From IMG/VR virus record IMGVR_UViG_3300044732_000293, positions 1-64,000 of that record: a stretch of DNA of 64,000 nucleotides, one strand, 5' to 3'. The notes under the pieces were generated by a model, which did no database searches, was not told the DNA's origin, and saw only the letters and a list, made by a program, of their open reading frames with translations. The DNA is from a virus. The translations under genes and the position numbers were made by a program. Position 1 is the first letter of the stretch. Each line of letters begins with the position of its first letter. Below are positions 8,065 to 33,294 of the stretch, one piece after another.

Positions 8065-11000
8065 TGGGTAATACTAGAAATACAGGCTATTTACAGAACA
8101 TCGTATTATATGATGCAAATGATAATATAACATTACCTGCAAGACTTGCTGTTACTGGAACTGTTTCTGTTAATAACACTACTCCTTATGATACTACCCA
8201 GTTTTCATTAGATGTTAATGGTGGATTGATAGTAAAAAATATTAACAAGACTGCTCAGTTTGTTTTAATAAATTCTAATCCAGCTTCTGGTGGTAATAAC
8301 GCATTTGTTGTTCATACCGTTGGTGGAACATCAGCTTCTTCTTATGCAGATATTCAAGGATATTATGGTACATCTATAGCAGGCAGTACTGTTCTTAGAT
8401 TAAACCCACAAGGCGGTAATGTACTTGTAGGGAGTCTTGCCGGAACAGGAAGCAGAATGGTGGTAGCTAGTTCTACAGGAGTTTTATCAACACAAGCTAT
8501 AGTTACATTAGGTGACCTTAGTGGTGTTTCTACTGCTAGAACAATTACAATTAATGGCACTACTCAAGATCTAAGTGCAAATAGAACTTGGACTCTTTAT
8601 ACAGATGATATTTCTGAAGACGGTTCACCTGTAAATCTTTGGTTTACAAATGCTAGAGCTAGAGCTGCAATTAGTGTAACTGGTTCAGGATCATATGATT
8701 CTGCAACAGGTGTAATTACAGTTACAGGAGGTGTAACAGCTGTTAATACAAAAACAGGAGATGTAACATTAACTACTTCTGATATTACTGAAGGAACAAG
8801 ATTATACTATACCGACACAAGAGTTGGAACATATCTTACTAGTAATAGTTATGCAACTCAATCTTATGTAACTACACAGATAGCTAATTTGGTTGATTCA
8901 GCACCAGGAACTCTTGACACACTTAATGAACTTGCTGCAGCTTTAGGAGATGATCCTAACTTTGCTACAAGTGTTGCTACATCTATTGGGACGAAACAAG
9001 CTCAGCTTAATGGCACTGGTTTTGTAAAAATAAGCGGAACCACTATAAGTTATGATAACTCTACCTACTTAACCTCGTTTACTGAGACAGATCCTATATA
9101 TGTAGCTAGTTCATGGTATAGTACAACTAATAACGCCTCTAACTGGAATACTGCATACGGCTGGGGTAATCATGCTAGTGCAGGATATTTAACTACTAGT
9201 TCTGCAGCTAGTACTTATGCTTCTCTTACAGGAGCTTATGCTAATCCAGCTTTTGTAGCATCATTGGCTTATTCTAAATTAACTGGTGTACCAAGTACAT
9301 TTACTCCTTCTTCTCATACTCATGCAATATCTGAAGTCACAGGATTACAAACAGCGTTAGATGGTAAGCAAGCTTCTCTTGGTTTTACTCCTTACAATGC
9401 TACCAATCCTAGTGGTTATATAACCTCTTCATCATTAAGTTCTTATGTACCATACAATGGTGCAACATCCTTACTTAATTTAGGTGTATATGCTATATTT
9501 AGTGGAAATCATTATATAGATACACCTGCTGGTATTGTAATGTTTAAACATGGAGTTGGAACAACTTTAGCAAATTCAGGTTATTCAGGAATTGGTCCAT
9601 CAGGAACAGATGGTATGCAGTTGTCATTCAATGGTACAGCTAACACTATTATATTTAGAAACAATTTACTTTCTACAGGTAGAATTTATTCTTTACCTAA
9701 TGCTTCAGGAACATTAGCATTAACAAGCGATATTCCAACTAACTTAAATCAGTTGACAAATGGACCAGGATATATTACTTCTTATACTGAAACTGATACT
9801 TTAGCTTCTGTTACGGGAAGAGGAGCTTCTACATCAAGTAATGTTACTTTTTCAGGAATAACAAGATTAGGTAGCTCTGGTTATAATACATACATTAATG
9901 GTGGGTTAATGCTTAGAGATTATGGTAATAGCTCATTAACAAATGGTAGGTTTTATTATCAAGATGATGCATGGCATTTTAGAGGTGGTGGTGAAGGAGA
10001 AGCTGATGTAACGTCAGATACTGAAATGTATATTAGAAATGGAAATATTGAAAGATTAGTTATACATGCAGGAAATATTGGTTCTCAATCTGTAAACTAT
10101 GCAAACTCAGCTGGTTCTGCGGGTTCTGCTGGTACTGCAGATAATATAGATGGTTGGAGTTTTGTTAATACAGGAAGCAATAGTGGCACAAATGCTAATA
10201 CTATTGCAAGTAATGGTATTAGTTATGCAACATCAAATGTTAATTTATTTGGACAAACAGATGGAGCTCTTTATTCTCAGGCTTATAATTCAGATTGGCA
10301 ACATCAAATATATGGTGATTATAGAACTGGACAATTGGCGGTTCGTGGTAAGCAATCTGGATCTTGGACTGGATGGAGAACTATAATTGATTCTTCTACT
10401 ATTGGATCTCAGTCTGTATCTTATGCAACTACTGCAGGTTCTGCTGGTTCAGCATTTGGTATGGGTTATGATGGTAATGCTATATCTGGAATGGGGCCTA
10501 TATCAACATGGGATTCTAGACCTGGTGTTGGTATGGCTGGTTTTGGTATTAGCTGGCATACTGGTGTATCTATTTCAGGATATCCAGGATATGGTGGTGT
10601 AAGACTTTATTCAGCAGGGTATCCTACACATGCTTCTTCAGTATTAAGACTTGAGGCTTCTACAGCCGTTTATACATTTGGTGGGTTATACTCAGATGGT
10701 AATGCTGTTATACATGCTGGTAATATTAGTTCTCAACCAGTAGTTACAATTCAAGATGCTCCACCATCTGGTTCTGCAGGTAGATTATGGTGGGAAAGTG
10801 ATACTGGTAAATTAAAAGTTTACTATGGTAGTGCTTGGGTTGATGCTACTCCTATTCCAGATTCATCTCTTTTCTTTGCTAAAGCAGGAGGATCTATTAC
10901 TGGAGATGTATCAATTGGACAAACTCTTAACGTAGTAGGAAACACACTTGTTCAAGGTAACATTAATGCGTTTGGTGATATAACAGCTTATAGTAGTTCA

Positions 11001-11294
11001 GATGCTAGATTAAAAGATAACATTACTGTTATTGAATCACCACTTGAAAAATTATCTAAAATAAACGGTGTATCATTTAACTGGAATGATAAACAATCTG
11101 TATATGAAGTAGGTGCAAAAGACTATGGGGTTATTGCACAAGAAGTTGAAGAAGTATTACCTGAACTTGTAACTACAAGAGATAATGGATATAAAGCTGT
11201 ACGTTATGAAAAAATAGTATCTTTGTTAATAGAAGCAATTAAAGAGCAACAAACTCAGATTAATAACTTAACTGATAAACTTAACAAGTTATAA
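8064..11294 (+). CDS. Second long tail fibre with C-terminal S74 chaperone
   Basis: The 1076-residue product is a paralogue in design of the fibre before it. It shares the shaft repeats (TRLYYTDTRVGTYL; APGTLDTLNELAAALGDDPN; WNTAYGWGNHASAGYL) and later has SGYITSYTETDTLASVTGRGA, also found in its neighbour. Near residues 900-930 is a short AWVDA segment of the fibre attachment type (GRLWWESDTGKLKVYYGSAW). The C-terminus is an S74 chaperone starting at Ser979 (SDARLKDN) with GVIAQEVEEVLPELV. Self-cleavage before Ser979 would leave about 978 residues. The different middle regions of the two fibres suggest different receptors or different positions on the tail, which is inference. Confidence 0.92.
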   Translation: MGNTRNTGYLQNIVLYDANDNITLPARLAVTGTVSVNNTTPYDTTQFSLDVNGGLIVKNINKTAQFVLINSNPASGGNNAFVVHTVGGTSASSYADIQGYYGTSIAGSTVLRLNPQGGNVLVGSLAGTGSRMVVASSTGVLSTQAIVTLGDLSGVSTARTITINGTTQDLSANRTWTLYTDDISEDGSPVNLWFTNARARAAISVTGSGSYDSATGVITVTGGVTAVNTKTGDVTLTTSDITEGTRLYYTDTRVGTYLTSNSYATQSYVTTQIANLVDSAPGTLDTLNELAAALGDDPNFATSVATSIGTKQAQLNGTGFVKISGTTISYDNSTYLTSFTETDPIYVASSWYSTTNNASNWNTAYGWGNHASAGYLTTSSAASTYASLTGAYANPAFVASLAYSKLTGVPSTFTPSSHTHAISEVTGLQTALDGKQASLGFTPYNATNPSGYITSSSLSSYVPYNGATSLLNLGVYAIFSGNHYIDTPAGIVMFKHGVGTTLANSGYSGIGPSGTDGMQLSFNGTANTIIFRNNLLSTGRIYSLPNASGTLALTSDIPTNLNQLTNGPGYITSYTETDTLASVTGRGASTSSNVTFSGITRLGSSGYNTYINGGLMLRDYGNSSLTNGRFYYQDDAWHFRGGGEGEADVTSDTEMYIRNGNIERLVIHAGNIGSQSVNYANSAGSAGSAGTADNIDGWSFVNTGSNSGTNANTIASNGISYATSNVNLFGQTDGALYSQAYNSDWQHQIYGDYRTGQLAVRGKQSGSWTGWRTIIDSSTIGSQSVSYATTAGSAGSAFGMGYDGNAISGMGPISTWDSRPGVGMAGFGISWHTGVSISGYPGYGGVRLYSAGYPTHASSVLRLEASTAVYTFGGLYSDGNAVIHAGNISSQPVVTIQDAPPSGSAGRLWWESDTGKLKVYYGSAWVDATPIPDSSLFFAKAGGSITGDVSIGQTLNVVGNTLVQGNINAFGDITAYSSSDARLKDNITVIESPLEKLSKINGVSFNWNDKQSVYEVGAKDYGVIAQEVEEVLPELVTTRDNGYKAVRYEKIVSLLIEAIKEQQTQINNLTDKLNKL
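10998..11291 (+). other. S74 intramolecular chaperone domain (second copy)
   Basis: Codons for residues 979-1076. It has the SDARLKDN start, a GVIAQEVEEVLP core and a closing helix (LLIEAIKEQQTQINNL). Confidence 0.88.
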
Positions 11295-13979: not shown

Positions 13980-14849
13980 ATGAGAAAAGTGAAGATGCTA
14001 CTAGCAGCTTTATTTGTTACTGTATTGTCATTTGGTCAATATAGTAACAGTGCAATTAGACAAGGAACTGAAGAAGCTCTTAAGTCTCAGGATACAACTA
14101 AAAATGAGTTACAAGCTATAGTTGTAATTGCAAAGAAGGTACCGTTGATGACTAAGGTGGGTCCTTACAATCAACCTCTTTGGACAACAATTAGAATGTT
14201 TCCATCTACTAGAGTTTATGTAATGAACCCTCCAGGTACTGCAATGTATGAGAAGTGGTTTGATGTTAGACAGAGAAGAAATGGTGCAGCTCAAATTAGA
14301 ATGAGAGATGAATTTACATTTGGTTTAGGTAAAAGACTTCAATTAGATCTTTATTCTCATACAGTGTATGATGGTTTAAATGGAGATAAGACTTTTAAAT
14401 GGAGAGGATTTTCTTGGGAGTTTAGATATGCTTTAGCTGACTGGGGTAAGATTTGGGGTAACCCAACTCTTTACTATGAGATGAAAATGTTAGATGGTCG
14501 TTGGGGCATTGAACCTAAATTATTACTAGGTGATAAGATTGGTAAAAAAGGAGTATGGGGATTTAATGCTATTTATGAAGGTAATTTAGCTAGCACTAAA
14601 GAAGAGCAGGAAAGAGAATATGCTTATACAGCATCTTATGCTAATATAATTAATAATGATTTGTCTCTTGGTGTATCACATATGTTTAGATATAATGACT
14701 ATGAGGGTGGTTCAGAAGAGTGGTATGTTGGTCCGTTAGTTCAATATCGTTTTAGTAACAAAGGTTATTTAAACATTGAGCATATGCCAGGTCTTAACCA
14801 AGATGCAAAACAATCAAGAACTTTAATTATTTTTGGCTGGAGATTTTAA
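13980..14849 (+). CDS. Exported outer-membrane beta-barrel protein, phage-encoded
   Basis: The product has 289 residues. Residues 1-20 are a clear signal peptide (MRKVKMLLAALFVTVLSFGQ) of flavobacterial style. Residues 43-53 (ELQAIVVIAKK) resemble the short conserved segment at the N-terminus of TonB-dependent receptors. The rest alternates aromatic and polar residues typical of transmembrane strands (for example LQLDLYSHTVYD and WGFNAIYEGNLA) and ends in FGWRF. A terminal aromatic residue is the usual signal for the BAM insertion machinery. It is far shorter than a TonB receptor (600-1000 residues), so a barrel of about 8-12 strands is likelier. Possible roles, all inferred, are masking of the receptor against superinfection or nutrient entry. 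A virion role seems unlikely because of the signal peptide. Confidence 0.75.
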   Translation: MRKVKMLLAALFVTVLSFGQYSNSAIRQGTEEALKSQDTTKNELQAIVVIAKKVPLMTKVGPYNQPLWTTIRMFPSTRVYVMNPPGTAMYEKWFDVRQRRNGAAQIRMRDEFTFGLGKRLQLDLYSHTVYDGLNGDKTFKWRGFSWEFRYALADWGKIWGNPTLYYEMKMLDGRWGIEPKLLLGDKIGKKGVWGFNAIYEGNLASTKEEQEREYAYTASYANIINNDLSLGVSHMFRYNDYEGGSEEWYVGPLVQYRFSNKGYLNIEHMPGLNQDAKQSRTLIIFGWRF

Positions 14850-14860
14850 ATAAAACAACA

Positions 14861-15574
14861 ATGGAAAAACAAGACGTTATAAAACTAGCAGAAAGTCATG
14901 GTGGATGGAGTATGAGTGATTTTCAAAGTAGATACTTTGTAGTTAATTCACAAGTAACTGATTATCGTAGAGTTAGACAAGCTTTACTAGAAATTGAAAC
15001 ACGTATTGCTGCTAAGAAACAAATTATCCGTGATACTAAAAGATCACAGGTTAAACTAAAGATTAAAGAAAAAGAGCTTGTAGCTCAATTAGATGATCTT
15101 GAAAAAGAACTTATTCTTTTAGACATAGATCAACTTCAGTATGATATTTCTGTATATGAAAAGAAGTTAAGAATTGTAGAAGAAGAGCTTGACGAGTTTG
15201 CAAAACTTGTTGTTGAGATTGTTCCTACTATAGAAGAGTTAGAGACATATAAAGAACATAATGATGAGCTTGAAAGAGAGTATTGGATTTCCCGTATGGC
15301 AAAACAAGCTAGTGTAGATATGATAACCACTGGAAGAATTGGTGCTGGTAATTTAGACTCAATTGCTATGATGGCATCACAAGATCAAGTTTTAACTATT
15401 GGTTCTGCTTTGTTAAACTCAAAGAAGCTTACTGCAGGTATTAATAAGATTGAACAAGCTCTTGATACTAATACCAGTCTTCTTGAAAGTAGTTTTTCTG
15501 GATTGTTTGAGAAGAGTGATTTTGTTAAACTGTTATCTGAAAAAAAGGAAAAAACGGATGGCCAAGATATTTAG
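14861..15574 (+). CDS. Coiled-coil protein of the accessory island
   Basis: The product has 237 residues. Residues 1-35 are a small N-terminal part (KLAESHGGWSMSDFQSRYFV). Residues 38-135 form a long, highly charged coiled coil rich in Glu, Lys and Leu, and the C-terminal third is shorter amphipathic helix. I know no family for it. It has no signal peptide or membrane segment. The gene overlaps the start of the iron-sulfur/methyltransferase gene by 17 nt, so the two are probably translated in a coupled way and may work together. A scaffold or tail-measure-like role cannot be excluded, but the length is short for the latter. It ends in TAG, one of only two such stops in the window. Confidence 0.65.
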   Translation: MEKQDVIKLAESHGGWSMSDFQSRYFVVNSQVTDYRRVRQALLEIETRIAAKKQIIRDTKRSQVKLKIKEKELVAQLDDLEKELILLDIDQLQYDISVYEKKLRIVEEELDEFAKLVVEIVPTIEELETYKEHNDELEREYWISRMAKQASVDMITTGRIGAGNLDSIAMMASQDQVLTIGSALLNSKKLTAGINKIEQALDTNTSLLESSFSGLFEKSDFVKLLSEKKEKTDGQDI

Positions 15575-17168
15575 TCTACCAATCAATCCTAAGTTATCTG
15601 AAAAACAGTTTATAGAGTTTGTAGAGTTTTGTGACAAGTATAAAGACTATATTTCAGATCTATACTTTACATGTAGAGTTCCTCCATTTACACAAGATGC
15701 TATGGGTGATCTTTTTACTTCTAAGGATGATCCTCAGTATATGATTGATGTAGCACTTTATATTCAAGAAAGAACAGGAATAACAGCTTCTGCTACTTTT
15801 AATAATATATCGGTTAGACCAACACAGGAAAATTTAGATCTTTGGATTGAATCTTTTAAACCTATATATACTAAAGGAGTTAGATTATGTACACTACCTT
15901 TTAATCATTGGTTGTTAACTGGTCAGATTCAAAAAGAGTTTCCAGAGTTAGAAGTTAGAGCTTCTATATTGATGGATACAAAGACAGCCACAGATGCTTA
16001 TAATGTAGTGACAAGTGGTTTTCATTCTGTATGTATTGATAGAGCTCTAATGAGAGATCAAGATACTATAAAGAAGATAGTTAAGATAAAACGTAAAAAA
16101 CCTTTTAAACTTGTATTATTAGCTAATGAAGGTTGTTTAGGTAAATGTCCAGTGATGTCTGAGCATTACCATTATAATAATACTAGAACAACTGATAGTC
16201 AGTATTTTAACAATCCTATTAGTAGAGTGTCATGTCCAATGTGGGATGTTACTAATAAAGCGGTTGTATTAAAAACTGCAGATATCCCAGCTTGGAAAGA
16301 AGACTGGGATGAGTTTCTTGATATGGGAGTAGATATCTTTAAGATGCATGGTAGAGAAAACGTTAAGAAGATATATGATTCCATGAATATTGTCAGAAAC
16401 TACGCAGAGAATAAGACTATGTTATATGACATAAATCTTAAGATTAGTGAAGACAATGCTGCTAAGTGGAGGAAGATTATTAAAACCTGTCAGTTTGAAT
16501 GTTGGAGTTGTAACTTCTGTGATAGAATAGCTGGTGGTGAGTTAGATAAAAAAGCAGTTAGTGTTGCAAATATTCTAGTTGATAGCGTTAACTCAGATTT
16601 TGAAACAACAGTTCCAGGATTATCTAGTCCTAGAATTGATAAGCTTTTAAATGAACTTGGTAAAATATCAACAGGCTATTTAGAAATTGGTTGTCTTGGT
16701 GGTAGAACTTTTTCTAGTACTATTGCTGGTAATAAGTTAAATGCGTATGCTGTAGATAACTGGAAAGAAGGAGTAGCTGCAGAGAATAACTCTATTGATA
16801 TAACTGTTACCAAAGAAGACTTTGTTAAGAATATTCTACCATATAAAGGAGAGAATAAAATCAAAGTGTTTAACTGTGACTATATTGATGTAGATAAAAC
16901 CAATATTAAAGATATAGATTTATTTCTATATGATGGAGATCACTCACATAATAGTACAAGACTTGCAGTAGAGTATTTTGCAGACACATTTGCAGAAGAA
17001 TGTATTTTAGTTTTTGATGATGCTAATTGGGAAGGTGTAGTAAGTGGTGCTCTTGCAGGTATAGAAAAAGCTGGTTTAACTATTCAGTATGAGAAAAAAC
17101 TATTGAATAGTATAGAGGATAAAGATATGTGGTGGAATGGATTGTATATAGTGGTTGTTAAAAAGTAA
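15558..17168 (+). CDS. Fusion of U32-like iron-sulfur barrel and class I methyltransferase
   Basis: I start at ATG 15558 (536 residues) and not at the in-frame ATG 108 nt upstream. The upstream extension lies wholly inside the previous gene, and an AAGGA sequence sits 8 nt before 15558. Residues 1-330 look like a TIM-barrel of the U32 type with Cys clusters that could hold an Fe-S cluster: C193 and C197 (NEGCLGKCP), C226 (SCPMW) and C311-C315-C318-C321 (C-x3-C-x2-C-x2-C). Residues 370-536 are a SAM-dependent methyltransferase: E376 and the Gly-rich motif I (EIGCLGG), acidic D459-G-D461-H and FDDANW, most like the Methyltransf_24/CmcI group. U32 enzymes modify RNA, ubiquinone or proteins; the substrate here is unknown. 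A radical-SAM-like fold is the alternative for the first half. Confidence 0.72.
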   Translation: MAKIFSLPINPKLSEKQFIEFVEFCDKYKDYISDLYFTCRVPPFTQDAMGDLFTSKDDPQYMIDVALYIQERTGITASATFNNISVRPTQENLDLWIESFKPIYTKGVRLCTLPFNHWLLTGQIQKEFPELEVRASILMDTKTATDAYNVVTSGFHSVCIDRALMRDQDTIKKIVKIKRKKPFKLVLLANEGCLGKCPVMSEHYHYNNTRTTDSQYFNNPISRVSCPMWDVTNKAVVLKTADIPAWKEDWDEFLDMGVDIFKMHGRENVKKIYDSMNIVRNYAENKTMLYDINLKISEDNAAKWRKIIKTCQFECWSCNFCDRIAGGELDKKAVSVANILVDSVNSDFETTVPGLSSPRIDKLLNELGKISTGYLEIGCLGGRTFSSTIAGNKLNAYAVDNWKEGVAAENNSIDITVTKEDFVKNILPYKGENKIKVFNCDYIDVDKTNIKDIDLFLYDGDHSHNSTRLAVEYFADTFAEECILVFDDANWEGVVSGALAGIEKAGLTIQYEKKLLNSIEDKDMWWNGLYIVVVKK

Positions 17169-17170
17169 TT

Positions 17171-18043
17171 ATGGAAGTATTAATTAAATTATTAGATGGT
17201 ATATGGTTTGTCCCTTTTGTGGCAGGTATTATGTTTTTAACTAATATAATTAATGCCAAGGGATACTTTGTACCGTTTTATAAGTTTTTGGAAAAGAAGA
17301 TAAAGTCTAAAAGATTACTGATTGCTTTAATTAGTGCAGTGTCTGGAGTACTTCCAGTTCCAGGTAGAGTTATAATTAGTGCAGGGGCACTTGATACGTT
17401 AGCACCAAATGATGATAGAAAAAAGAAGTATGGTATAATAAACTATCTATCTACTCATCATTATTATCTCTGGTCTCCATTGGAAGCTACGGTATTAATT
17501 CCACTTTCTGTATTAGGTATAAGTTACTTTTACTTATTATCTATAGTTGCTCCTTTGCTAATAACTATTATTGGGATTACACTATATTACATATTTTATG
17601 TTCTTAAAGAAGATGATATTGTAATAAGTAAAATAGAGCATAAAAAAGATAAGACTATAAAAAATATAAAGTGGGATGTGGTAATGCTGACAGCTTTGGT
17701 TATTATTCTAGGCAATGGAATAAAGATGTACTCAGATACTATTGTAAACTTTCTTATGTCTTTTAATAGTGGTGTGTTTTTTGCATCTATTATAGCTTTT
17801 ATAAGCAGTTTTGTTTTAGGATCTAGTAGTAAGTTTGCAGGAATAACTACATTGTTAGTTACAGTTTTTGGTCTGAATTACTTACCACTATTTTTTGCAT
17901 TAGGTTATTCTGGTTATTTAGTAAGTCCAATGCACAAATGTTTGGTAATTACAAAAAGTTACTTTAACTTAAGTATAGAGCTATATAAGATCCTACTTCT
18001 TATAGGGGCAGTTTTAGTTACAGTAGGATATTTGTTAGTATAA
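17171..18043 (+). CDS. Multi-pass membrane protein resembling DUF401 transporters
   Basis: The product has 290 residues with about eight or nine hydrophobic segments and no cleavable signal. Conserved-looking loops include GVLPVPGRVIISAGAL (near residues 57-72), an ST-HHYYLWSPLEA segment and, near the C-terminus, GSSSKFAGITTLL and GYLVSPMHKCLVITKSYF. These half-buried Pro/Gly/Ser motifs recall the DUF401 family of putative inner-membrane ion transporters. That placement comes from memory of the motifs and is not proven. The gene follows the iron-sulfur/methyltransferase gene by 2 nt and closes the island. It would act in the host inner membrane. Full-length transporter-like genes are rare in a phage late region, so it is probably an acquired host gene. 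Confidence 0.7.
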   Translation: MEVLIKLLDGIWFVPFVAGIMFLTNIINAKGYFVPFYKFLEKKIKSKRLLIALISAVSGVLPVPGRVIISAGALDTLAPNDDRKKKYGIINYLSTHHYYLWSPLEATVLIPLSVLGISYFYLLSIVAPLLITIIGITLYYIFYVLKEDDIVISKIEHKKDKTIKNIKWDVVMLTALVIILGNGIKMYSDTIVNFLMSFNSGVFFASIIAFISSFVLGSSSKFAGITTLLVTVFGLNYLPLFFALGYSGYLVSPMHKCLVITKSYFNLSIELYKILLLIGAVLVTVGYLLV

Positions 18044-31489: not shown

Positions 31490-32164
31490 ATGTCAAAGAA
31501 TACAGTGGGAGATATCATCTCAAGAATACGTAGCCAAGTAAAAGCTGTGAGACAAGACTCTATGCTTACTGACCGTCTTATATATAGTTTTGTACTTAAG
31601 CATTCTAAATGGTTAATGAAACGTGAAGACAGTAAGAATAAGCTTATGGCTTTTTCTGGGGTTATGCAAACTATGGACCATGTTGAACTTGTAGAAGTTG
31701 ACAAGGTTCAAGCTATGTGTACTGGTTTAAGTTCTGATTGTACAATTAAAAGAACTAAAGCTAAGCTTCCAGTTTTCTTACAGGGTTATTACGGTCCTTT
31801 AGTAAGAACTGTAGCTTCTTTAGATGGTTCTGAGGAATTACAACCTATTCTTCCTACAACTTACTTAGCATTAAGTAAGAGTAAGAATTTTAAATATAAC
31901 AAGACTAAATACTACTGGTTCTTAGATAACTATATGTACTTTCCTAATCTTGATTGGGATGGTATACGTGTAGAAGGAATCTTTGAAGATGATATTAGTG
32001 CATATACATGTGCAGCTGATTCTTGTATTACAAGAACAGATTTGCAGTTTAATGTACCAGACTATCTTCACGGAGAAGTAGAAGCAGCTGTATTAAAAGA
32101 TCTTATTTCTATGTACCAATTACCTTCAGATATTTCTGCTGATAAACAAAATCCTTTAAGATAA
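31490..32164 (+). CDS. Neck/tail ring protein candidate
   Basis: The product has 224 residues. The N-terminus (IISRIRSQVKAV-x-QDSMLTDRLIYSF, then LMKREDSKNKLM) follows a pattern I recall in crAss-like and other Bacteroidota phage proteins that form part of the tail barrel. The middle contains Cys and beta segments. The C-terminus (DYLHGEVEAAVLKDLISMY) is a helix pair like those of tail adaptor proteins. It is followed by a second such gene and then by the muzzle-like protein, the usual order for a podovirus-type tail. The role is inferred from pattern and gene order. No structural homology could be checked. Confidence 0.6.
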   Translation: MSKNTVGDIISRIRSQVKAVRQDSMLTDRLIYSFVLKHSKWLMKREDSKNKLMAFSGVMQTMDHVELVEVDKVQAMCTGLSSDCTIKRTKAKLPVFLQGYYGPLVRTVASLDGSEELQPILPTTYLALSKSKNFKYNKTKYYWFLDNYMYFPNLDWDGIRVEGIFEDDISAYTCAADSCITRTDLQFNVPDYLHGEVEAAVLKDLISMYQLPSDISADKQNPLR

Positions 32165-32165
32165 A

Positions 32166-32405
32166 ATGGCAAAAGCTTATAAAAAGTATATTCTTATTGA
32201 CCATGGTAATAATAGACATGTGTTTATTAATAGCCTTGGTGAACTAACTGCATGGTTTGCTGGTCAGACTCCTGCTGTAGATATTAGTACATTACCTGTA
32301 GATGGTACTGGTCTATTTACTACATTAAAACTTATCAGAACAGACAATGGGGTTATAGTACCAATTAAGAAAGTAGTTAACAACGCATCAGTTTGTTTTC
32401 AATAA
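32166..32405 (+). CDS. Small protein between ring-protein candidates
   Basis: The product has 79 residues and is predicted to be mainly beta. It starts with a basic segment (MAKAYKKYILIDHGNNRHVF) and continues with short strands (LTAWFAGQTPAVDI, LKLIRTDNGVIVPIKKVV). There is one Cys near the C-terminus and no membrane segment. It lies one base after the preceding ring-protein candidate and 7 nt before the next, so it is translated with them. A small connector or decoration protein is possible, but there is no direct evidence. Confidence 0.6.
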   Translation: MAKAYKKYILIDHGNNRHVFINSLGELTAWFAGQTPAVDISTLPVDGTGLFTTLKLIRTDNGVIVPIKKVVNNASVCFQ

Positions 32406-32412
32406 TTAAGAA

Positions 32413-33294
32413 ATGAATACAGAATTAAAATATAGAACCTTTGATGAACTCTTAGATGAGGTATCTGTAGACTTTAAAGTTTATAGTAATGAAGGTATGA
32501 TTGAACCTGGAGAACTTATCAAGGTGGCTCAAAGAGTTACTTATGATCTTGGTTTACGTATCCACAAAACAAAGGAAGTTATTTTAGATGTTGAAAAAAG
32601 AAGGGCTAAATTACCTGATGATTTTTATGTGGTAAATTATGCAATGCTAATTGGTAGATATAAAATTAGTACTCCAGCTATTCAAGGTGATCAAAGAGAA
32701 TCCGTATGTGTAGCATCTGTATGTAGAAAATGTCATGGTAATTCTAATGAATGTGGCTGTGATGATCTTTATTCTGTAGCTGTAGATGTACATGGTGATG
32801 ACTCAGGAAGTTTAGTACTAGTACAAAAGATTAAGTCAGAAACTAGAGTGTATGATCATTTTGAAAGAATTCATTTAGGTGGAGGTAAGTATTTACAAAA
32901 TGATGAGTTACATGGTGATAGACCGTGTCCTAATAATGGAGAAATAAAAAATGGATATATTTATACTAATTTACAAGAGGGTAAAATATATCTTTCCTAT
33001 GAAGGAGCATTAGAAGATGATGAAGGTAATTTACTTGTGTTAGATCATCCAATGATTAATGAGTATTATGAGTATGCGTTAAAACAACGTATTCTAGAAA
33101 ACTTATTTATGTCAGGTGAAGAAGTTTCTCAAAAGATGCAACTAATTGAAACTAGATTAAGAGCTGCAAGAAATTATGCACTTACTATTGTTAATACTCC
33201 AAACTTCTCAGAAATGAAAAAGTTATGGGAAATGAATCGTAGAGCTCAGTATAATAAATATTATGATATGTTCAAGTCTGGACCACAATTTTAA
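32413..33294 (+). CDS. Neck/tail adaptor protein candidate
   Basis: The product has 293 residues. The first 75 residues (FDELLDEVSVDFKVYSNEGM, then IKVAQRVTYDLGLRIHKTKEV and RRAKLPDDFYVVNYAML) are of the tail-tubular or adaptor type seen before the muzzle protein in crAss-like phages. A central Cys cluster (CVASVCRKCHGNSNECGCDD, near residues 98-117) may bind zinc. The C-terminal third is helical (YEYALKQRILENLF). It lies directly before the small metallopeptidase gene. The assignment comes from the sequence pattern and order and is moderately sure. Confidence 0.62.
   Translation: MNTELKYRTFDELLDEVSVDFKVYSNEGMIEPGELIKVAQRVTYDLGLRIHKTKEVILDVEKRRAKLPDDFYVVNYAMLIGRYKISTPAIQGDQRESVCVASVCRKCHGNSNECGCDDLYSVAVDVHGDDSGSLVLVQKIKSETRVYDHFERIHLGGGKYLQNDELHGDRPCPNNGEIKNGYIYTNLQEGKIYLSYEGALEDDEGNLLVLDHPMINEYYEYALKQRILENLFMSGEEVSQKMQLIETRLRAARNYALTIVNTPNFSEMKKLWEMNRRAQYNKYYDMFKSGPQF

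Follow-up and report, generated by a model that had tools for sequence, protein, structure and literature searches.

To our knowledge, TonB energizes a single outer-membrane fold, the plugged barrel of 22 strands, and no 12-strand barrel is known to draw energy from TonB. A TonB box mostly signals uptake. Outer-membrane barrels encoded by phages are represented by Lom of lambda and the PA-2 porin. In Bacteroides thetaiotaomicron, deletion or replacement of the box VDEVVV of a SusC protein impaired growth on levan much as the loss of SusD does (PMC7782687). For the activity of TonB boxes, local secondary structure is described as mattering more than side chains, and the same source gives Tsx as a 12-strand barrel without a TonB box (PMC11658791). 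FapF is a 12-strand barrel closed by an N-terminal stretch; it is trimeric, has a coiled coil in the periplasm and acts as a secretion pore in amyloid export (PMC5557850). The COG4313 channel Pput2725 is likewise a 12-strand barrel whose lumen is closed by an N-terminal segment, and channels of this group are thought to carry hydrophobic solutes (PMC4493636).

The window (the whole stretch of 64,000 nucleotides that was analysed, positions 1 to 64,000 of IMG/VR record IMGVR_UViG_3300044732_000293) contains on its plus strand an ORF at 13980-14849, which starts with ATG at 13980, has a stop codon ending at 14849 and encodes a product of 289 aa. Two scans of viral sequences returned 48 and 52 loci with 47 contigs in common, which gave 53 distinct loci (the 48 of the first scan and 5 further contigs of the second) with proteins 62-91% identical to the window protein; at one of them (L047), only part of the gene is present. 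Because 53 distinct viral loci encode it, the ORF is a conserved, real gene and not a chance frame. These loci are non-independent samples, and the 47 full-length copies from the first scan correspond to 35 distinct proteins. Between the window and L001, the barrel gene has a dN of 0.052 and a dS of 1.28, the latter being near saturation, and strong purifying selection on the barrel was shown. A promoter scan of the sequence found 20 elements against 25.5 expected; terminator-like elements numbered 5 against 1.2 expected, and one of them lies on the plus strand within the barrel ORF.

The first-pass annotation had described the product as an exported outer-membrane barrel with a terminal Phe, too short to be a TonB-dependent receptor, and each of these points is supported, the outer-membrane barrel as a prediction. 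A non-barrel fold, which by that annotation would have counted against it, was not what structure prediction gave. The protein begins with MRKVKMLLAALFVTVLSFG followed by Q20. The signal peptide, assigned by eye and by the conservation of Q20, covers residues 1-19 (13980-14036, plus strand) and ends in SFG. Since Gln is expected after the cleavage site in signal peptidase I substrates of Bacteroidota (PMC5837995) and none of the 36 aligned rows of the family departs from Q20, the mature protein is expected to begin at Q20. The C-terminus reads ...WRF. In an AlphaFold2 model computed from the 36 rows (mean pLDDT 72.4, pTM 0.66), 12 strands were predicted over residues 88-288; as a feature, the barrel was assigned to residues 88-289 (14241-14846, plus strand). 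The N-terminus of the model is disordered, and residues 39-44 and 48-79 are below pLDDT 50. The protein is thus predicted to be exported and to sit in the outer membrane.

The solved structure most similar to the model was FapF (5o65; Z 18.8 over 219 residues, rmsd 3.2, 16% identity), followed by Pput2725 (4rl8; Z 17.4 over 211 residues, rmsd 3.1, 9% identity), and further barrels matched at Z 11-16. A weak echo of the second match was found at the sequence level: the window protein scored 16.5 bits (E 0.0089) against Phenol_MetA_deg (PF13557), below the cut-off of 22, and 10 of the 36 family rows matched the profile with E values of 1 or less, the lowest being 0.0014. We take the COG4313 channels to be members of this Pfam family. 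A PDB sequence search with the barrel protein returned nothing convincing and no match to FapF; no homologue was found at E up to 0.1 in 50,697 records of named phages, nor any PHROGs match at E up to 1, and all NCBIfam matches were sub-threshold (best E 0.031). Scanning genome contigs with the barrel alignment gave 20 pattern matches, none of which was confirmed, by a scan that relies on conserved short peptides and would miss distant host relatives.

Residues 44-53 (14109-14138, plus strand) form a TonB-box-like segment, assigned from the family alignment, pattern counts and comparison with Bacteroidota receptors. It reads LQAIVVIAKK in the window versus LQEIVVTAKK in the family consensus, and distant family rows keep the same type of box (FDEVLVEATK, MNEVIVTAKK, LKEVIVSES). 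The looser of two patterns, both devised with knowledge of the rows, matched 38 of 39 rows, the sole miss being the window copy. Across the window record and 20 loci, with 488 ORFs and 144,912 aa in all, the strict pattern occurred 20 times, of which 17 lie in the barrel family and 3 elsewhere; here too the window copy failed, with Glu changed to Ala and Thr to Ile relative to the consensus. The earlier reading of this segment as TonB-receptor-like holds for the family and is weakest for the window copy, which fits neither pattern. For comparison, the sequence upstream of PF07715 plugs was collected from five plasmid records of Bacteroidota, giving 14 matches, or 11 distinct receptors after near-identical Hymenobacter copies were set aside. 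The same box wording was present in five of the 11 (LLNEVVITASR, LEQVVITATR, QLNEVVVTALN, LDQVVVTGT and LSEVTVTGA); six did not show it, including one (L125) whose match begins at profile position 45, so that its box is hardly readable. When the 34-aa leader of L010, a short query of little power, was compared with the PDB, no TonB receptor was among the two matches. As far as alignment can tell, the resemblance to a TonB box is sound for the barrel family, and the window copy is its weakest row. Among the open-literature matches listed, no title or opening of an abstract describes a phage-encoded TonB-box or TonB-dependent outer-membrane protein like this one.

Between the box and the first strand lies a highly conserved stretch, residues 54-87 (14139-14240, plus strand). 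Its mean column identity is 0.96, compared with 0.78 for the linker at residues 27-43 and 0.90 for the barrel. On the strength of this conservation, and because N-terminal segments close the barrels of FapF and COG4313 channels, we infer that it may form a plug in the barrel lumen; in the model this stretch is of low confidence, and a plug is not displayed with confidence. With an E limit of 1, the window protein did not match the PF07715 plug domain, which was also not among the families listed for the 36 rows. Identity as a TonB-dependent transporter was rejected, as the protein has 12 strands instead of 22 and no PF07715 plug was found, but the barrel may still work like such a transporter.

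The usual partner of the barrel gene encodes a DUF401 membrane protein. In the window, it is a gene for 290 aa at 17171-18043 on the plus strand (PF04165, 39.8 bits, cut-off 24). At 45 of the 53 loci, the DUF401 ORF begins 13 nt inside the end of the barrel gene, and the same overlapping start was found at L017, L033, L034 and L048, so that the start of DUF401 overlaps the barrel stop by 13 nt at 49 of 53 loci. Three of these four (L017, L033 and L048) end 113-723 nt past the barrel. In the fourth, the DUF401 frame breaks soon after the overlapping start (L034:8910-9040), and at L036:8716-9277 the frame has just 186 aa; assembly error or decay may account for each. At L005, DUF401 lies 2.3 kb downstream of the barrel without overlap. 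The window resembles L005, with DUF401 at 2.3 kb and two genes between, and in both the protein lacks about 45 internal residues relative to the T4-like and cyanophage copies. No DUF401 was found near the barrel at L043, L044, where just 195 nt are left, or L045, and no match was found on the whole L043 record (119 kb, perhaps a fragment). Because DUF401 is missing from the L043 record and none adjoins the barrel at L045, the barrel can do without it. At L045, where DUF401 is missing, the next gene (10691-11116) encodes a further exported product, a small one of 141 aa, that matched no Pfam family.

PF04165 exceeded its cut-off in 13 of 16 records tested, among which W01-W03 are named cyanophages. 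The DUF401 model of L025 (pLDDT 76) matched a chloroplast dicarboxylate transporter (Z 22.7), NaS1 (22.5), NaDC3 (21.2) and ArsB (20.6), and further SiaQM (20.5), Pho90 (20.5) and VcINDY (20.4). Judged by this fold, the partner is predicted to be an anion carrier of the IT superfamily. An adjoining barrel was sought beside DUF401 in three cyanophage records (S-H25, metaG-MbCM1 and S-CAM4) and was found in none; DUF401 is preceded by a gene that matches phrog_274 (labelled endonuclease V) in S-H25 and metaG-MbCM1 and by one for a Phd-like protein in S-CAM4. Two of ten pattern matches on genome contigs were DUF401 relatives (L110:5332-6378 and L111:6591-7637), each beside a gene that looks MFS-like by eye. 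Between barrel and DUF401 in the window, a protein with a methyltransferase domain (PF13578) is encoded at 15450-17168; it is 39-41% identical to T4-like cyanophage proteins in the matches listed, and the 123 phage records that match it are all cyanophages.

The record of the window's phage has 100,841 bases and carries both crAss tail ring proteins, whose genes were located by profile matches at 31490-32164 and 32413-33294 (31490-33294 in all, plus strand; CrAss_Ring_2 77.3 bits and CrAss_Ring_1 46.8 bits, cut-offs 27). Judged by these proteins, the phage is crAss-like. Elsewhere on the phage's own record, an exported 701-aa protein (L103:5664-7769, record positions 88663-90768) showed a sub-threshold cohesin match (23.2 versus 24.1 bits) and, by eye, dockerin-like DxNxD repeats. 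A second exported protein, of 418 aa (L103:10151-11407, record positions 93150-94406), contains a long Ser/Lys-rich stretch and a C-terminal half that appears barrel-like by eye; no family exceeded its cut-off.

Lineage markers were compared across 35 records: the window's own and 34 belonging to loci among the 53. CrAss_Ring_2 was found in the window's record (G000) and in those of L005 (G003) and L043 (G029). The T4-type protein gp23 (PF07068) matched 9 of the 35 records at E up to 0.001, 4 of them over the cut-off, of which 3 were stretches of 46 positions, and gp20 (PF07230) matched one, G017. This contig (L021, 251 kb) carries T4-type gp20 and gp23 together with the barrel. Two other records, G020 (199 kb) and G021 (176 kb), gave no gp20 match, and for gp23 no match and a sub-threshold match, respectively. 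The tail-sheath domain PF17481 was unsuitable as a T4 marker, as it matched none of the 35 records, the gp20/gp23 contig included. By these markers, G017 is T4-like; for the others, the case for T4-like identity comes from synteny.

L001 and L021 have 12 flanking genes in common, which are 72-88% identical in 11 cases and 29% in the remaining one, and their barrels, at 86%, are no more conserved than most flanks. Between the window and L001, the barrel is 91% identical, whereas homologous neighbours are 30-43% identical. A slowly evolving barrel is not enough to account for this contrast, since barrel and flanks diverged similarly between L001 and L021. In the tree, the window and L005 fall with L001, L003, L004, L006 and L009 in a clade of seven rows (support 100/98), nested inside rows with the gene order of L021; L043 is placed elsewhere, with L044 and L045. 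A test with 5 of 39 rows labelled was compatible with a single change between crAss and T4 labels. These comparisons make at least one transfer of the barrel between T4-like and crAss-like phages probable.

Of 38 phage records that match Ring_2, 29 are Flavobacterium phages, 7 Cellulophaga phages, 1 is csAss and 1 is a Leptolyngbya phage, the last having the highest bit score among the best 15 of the 38 matches. The DNA polymerase of the window's phage matches phages of many hosts, and the top matches of the G017 gp23 include Rhodothermus, Microcystis and Flavobacterium phages. The host of the window's phage is probably a member of Bacteroidota.

The reading preferred here, to which a probability of roughly 45% was assigned, is that of a phage-borne outer-membrane channel, docked to TonB in most relatives, that feeds an inner-membrane carrier. 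The barrel protein would be exported by Sec and signal peptidase I, insert into the host outer membrane as a predicted 12-strand barrel and be closed from the periplasmic side by residues 54-87, as FapF and COG4313 channels suggest. The TonB box just ahead of the plug would, in most relatives, be pulled by host TonB-ExbB-ExbD. The periplasmic solute may then be taken on by the DUF401 carrier, the gene overlap being observed and the flow presumed, and the infected cell would gain an uptake route specified by the phage, perhaps for a small anion, with a presumable benefit to infection. This reading is supported by the fold matches to plugged barrels, the box pattern in 38 of 39 rows, a stretch 54-87 as conserved as any part, the 13-nt overlap at 49 of 53 loci, the IT-carrier fold, the probable exchange of the barrel and purifying selection on it, the box wording in 5 of 11 Bacteroidota receptors and the need for the SusC box on levan. 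It is weakened by the window box, which fails the patterns; by the barrel without DUF401 at L043 and with none adjacent at L045; by the cyanophages checked, which have DUF401 without an adjoining barrel; by the short DUF401 of the window and L005; by the arrival of the barrel in these two without its neighbours; by a model confidence mostly below 50 in residues 39-79; and by the hydrophobic solutes of COG4313 channels, which fit an anion carrier poorly. The window's phage has these same parts, but it is the case in which TonB dependence and coupling are least certain, because the box has drifted and DUF401 is 2.3 kb away and shortened.

It had been suggested earlier that the barrel might serve superinfection exclusion, with a link between fibres and receptor. 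The barrel would then occupy, mask or replace a surface receptor so that later phages could not adsorb or inject, and its exchange would reflect competitors shared by crAss-like and T4-like phages. This explanation was considered improbable, though more probable than either of the two that follow. The predicted surface location, the occurrence of the barrel in unrelated phages and its presence without DUF401 at L043 and L045 agree with exclusion, as does a gene near the window barrel with a Peptidase_S74 domain, which is usual in fibres. The neighbourhood varies, however, and by eye the different small genes that surround the barrel at L043 and L045 do not look like fibre genes. A transporter gene overlapping the barrel at 49 of 53 loci would not be expected and points to transport, and the outward parts show no unusual diversity (the barrel mean of 0.90 does not separate the loops), so the earlier suggestion is now less supported.

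It is less probable still that the barrel is only an anchor for a box that occupies host TonB and so shuts TonB-dependent receptors or the entry of competitors. Such a decoy would account for the lack of a TonB-receptor plug match in a family whose box pattern recurs in 38 of 39 rows, but it would need neither the strongly conserved plug-like stretch (0.96) and barrel (0.90) nor a transporter partner, and the window copy has a drifted box. Quite unlikely, finally, is an aid to export or lysis, in which the barrel releases a polypeptide, as FapF does, or an unwanted ion pumped in the manner of ArsB, or makes the outer membrane less stable at a late stage of infection. In its favour, FapF, the structure closest in fold, is a secretion pore, ArsB is among the DUF401 matches (Z 20.6), and Oar, a TonB-dependent transporter, is reported to be necessary for secretion in Myxococcus (PMC6434023), but a TonB box speaks mainly for uptake.

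The uptake reading also has a stronger form, which is only tentatively put forward and is less probable than the general one: a TonB-gated 12-strand transporter, translationally coupled to an anion carrier, would constitute a two-membrane uptake system that unrelated Bacteroidota phages exchange. If this is true, the way TonB opens a plug could be tested on a minimal object, a short barrel of 12 strands that bears a TonB box, and infection would rewire how nutrients cross the two membranes of environmental Bacteroidota.

Set against known systems, the DUF401 partner is similar in fold to the IT/DASS transporters NaS1, NaDC3, Pho90, VcINDY and ArsB (Z 20.4-22.5) but only 10-14% identical to them, the window copy being about 45 residues shorter. 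With Pput2725 the window protein shares the 12-strand barrel, an N-terminal segment ahead of the first strand and a weak sequence echo, whereas it stays below the PF13557 cut-off, and its family's TonB-box-like segment and phage context are absent from the part of the Pput2725 description used here. FapF is its best fold match, as a plugged 12-strand barrel in which the plug part of the match is weak; however, FapF assembles as a trimer with a coiled coil and serves amyloid export, whereas the window family has a TonB-box-like segment and DUF401 as its usual neighbour. The TonB-dependent transporters of Bacteroidota, SusC among them, have a similarly short periplasmic leader with the same box wording, but theirs are the 22 strands and the PF07715 plug, as opposed to 12 strands and no plug match in the window family. 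BFVD returned several phage barrels, some labelled porin or outer-membrane protein, which resemble the window protein as phage-encoded barrels of outer-membrane type; compared by these labels, the TonB-box-like segment and the overlapping gene of an inner-membrane carrier are the marks of the window family. Phage-borne outer-membrane barrels as such are therefore already known, and the window protein belongs to a variant whose members mostly carry a TonB-box pattern.
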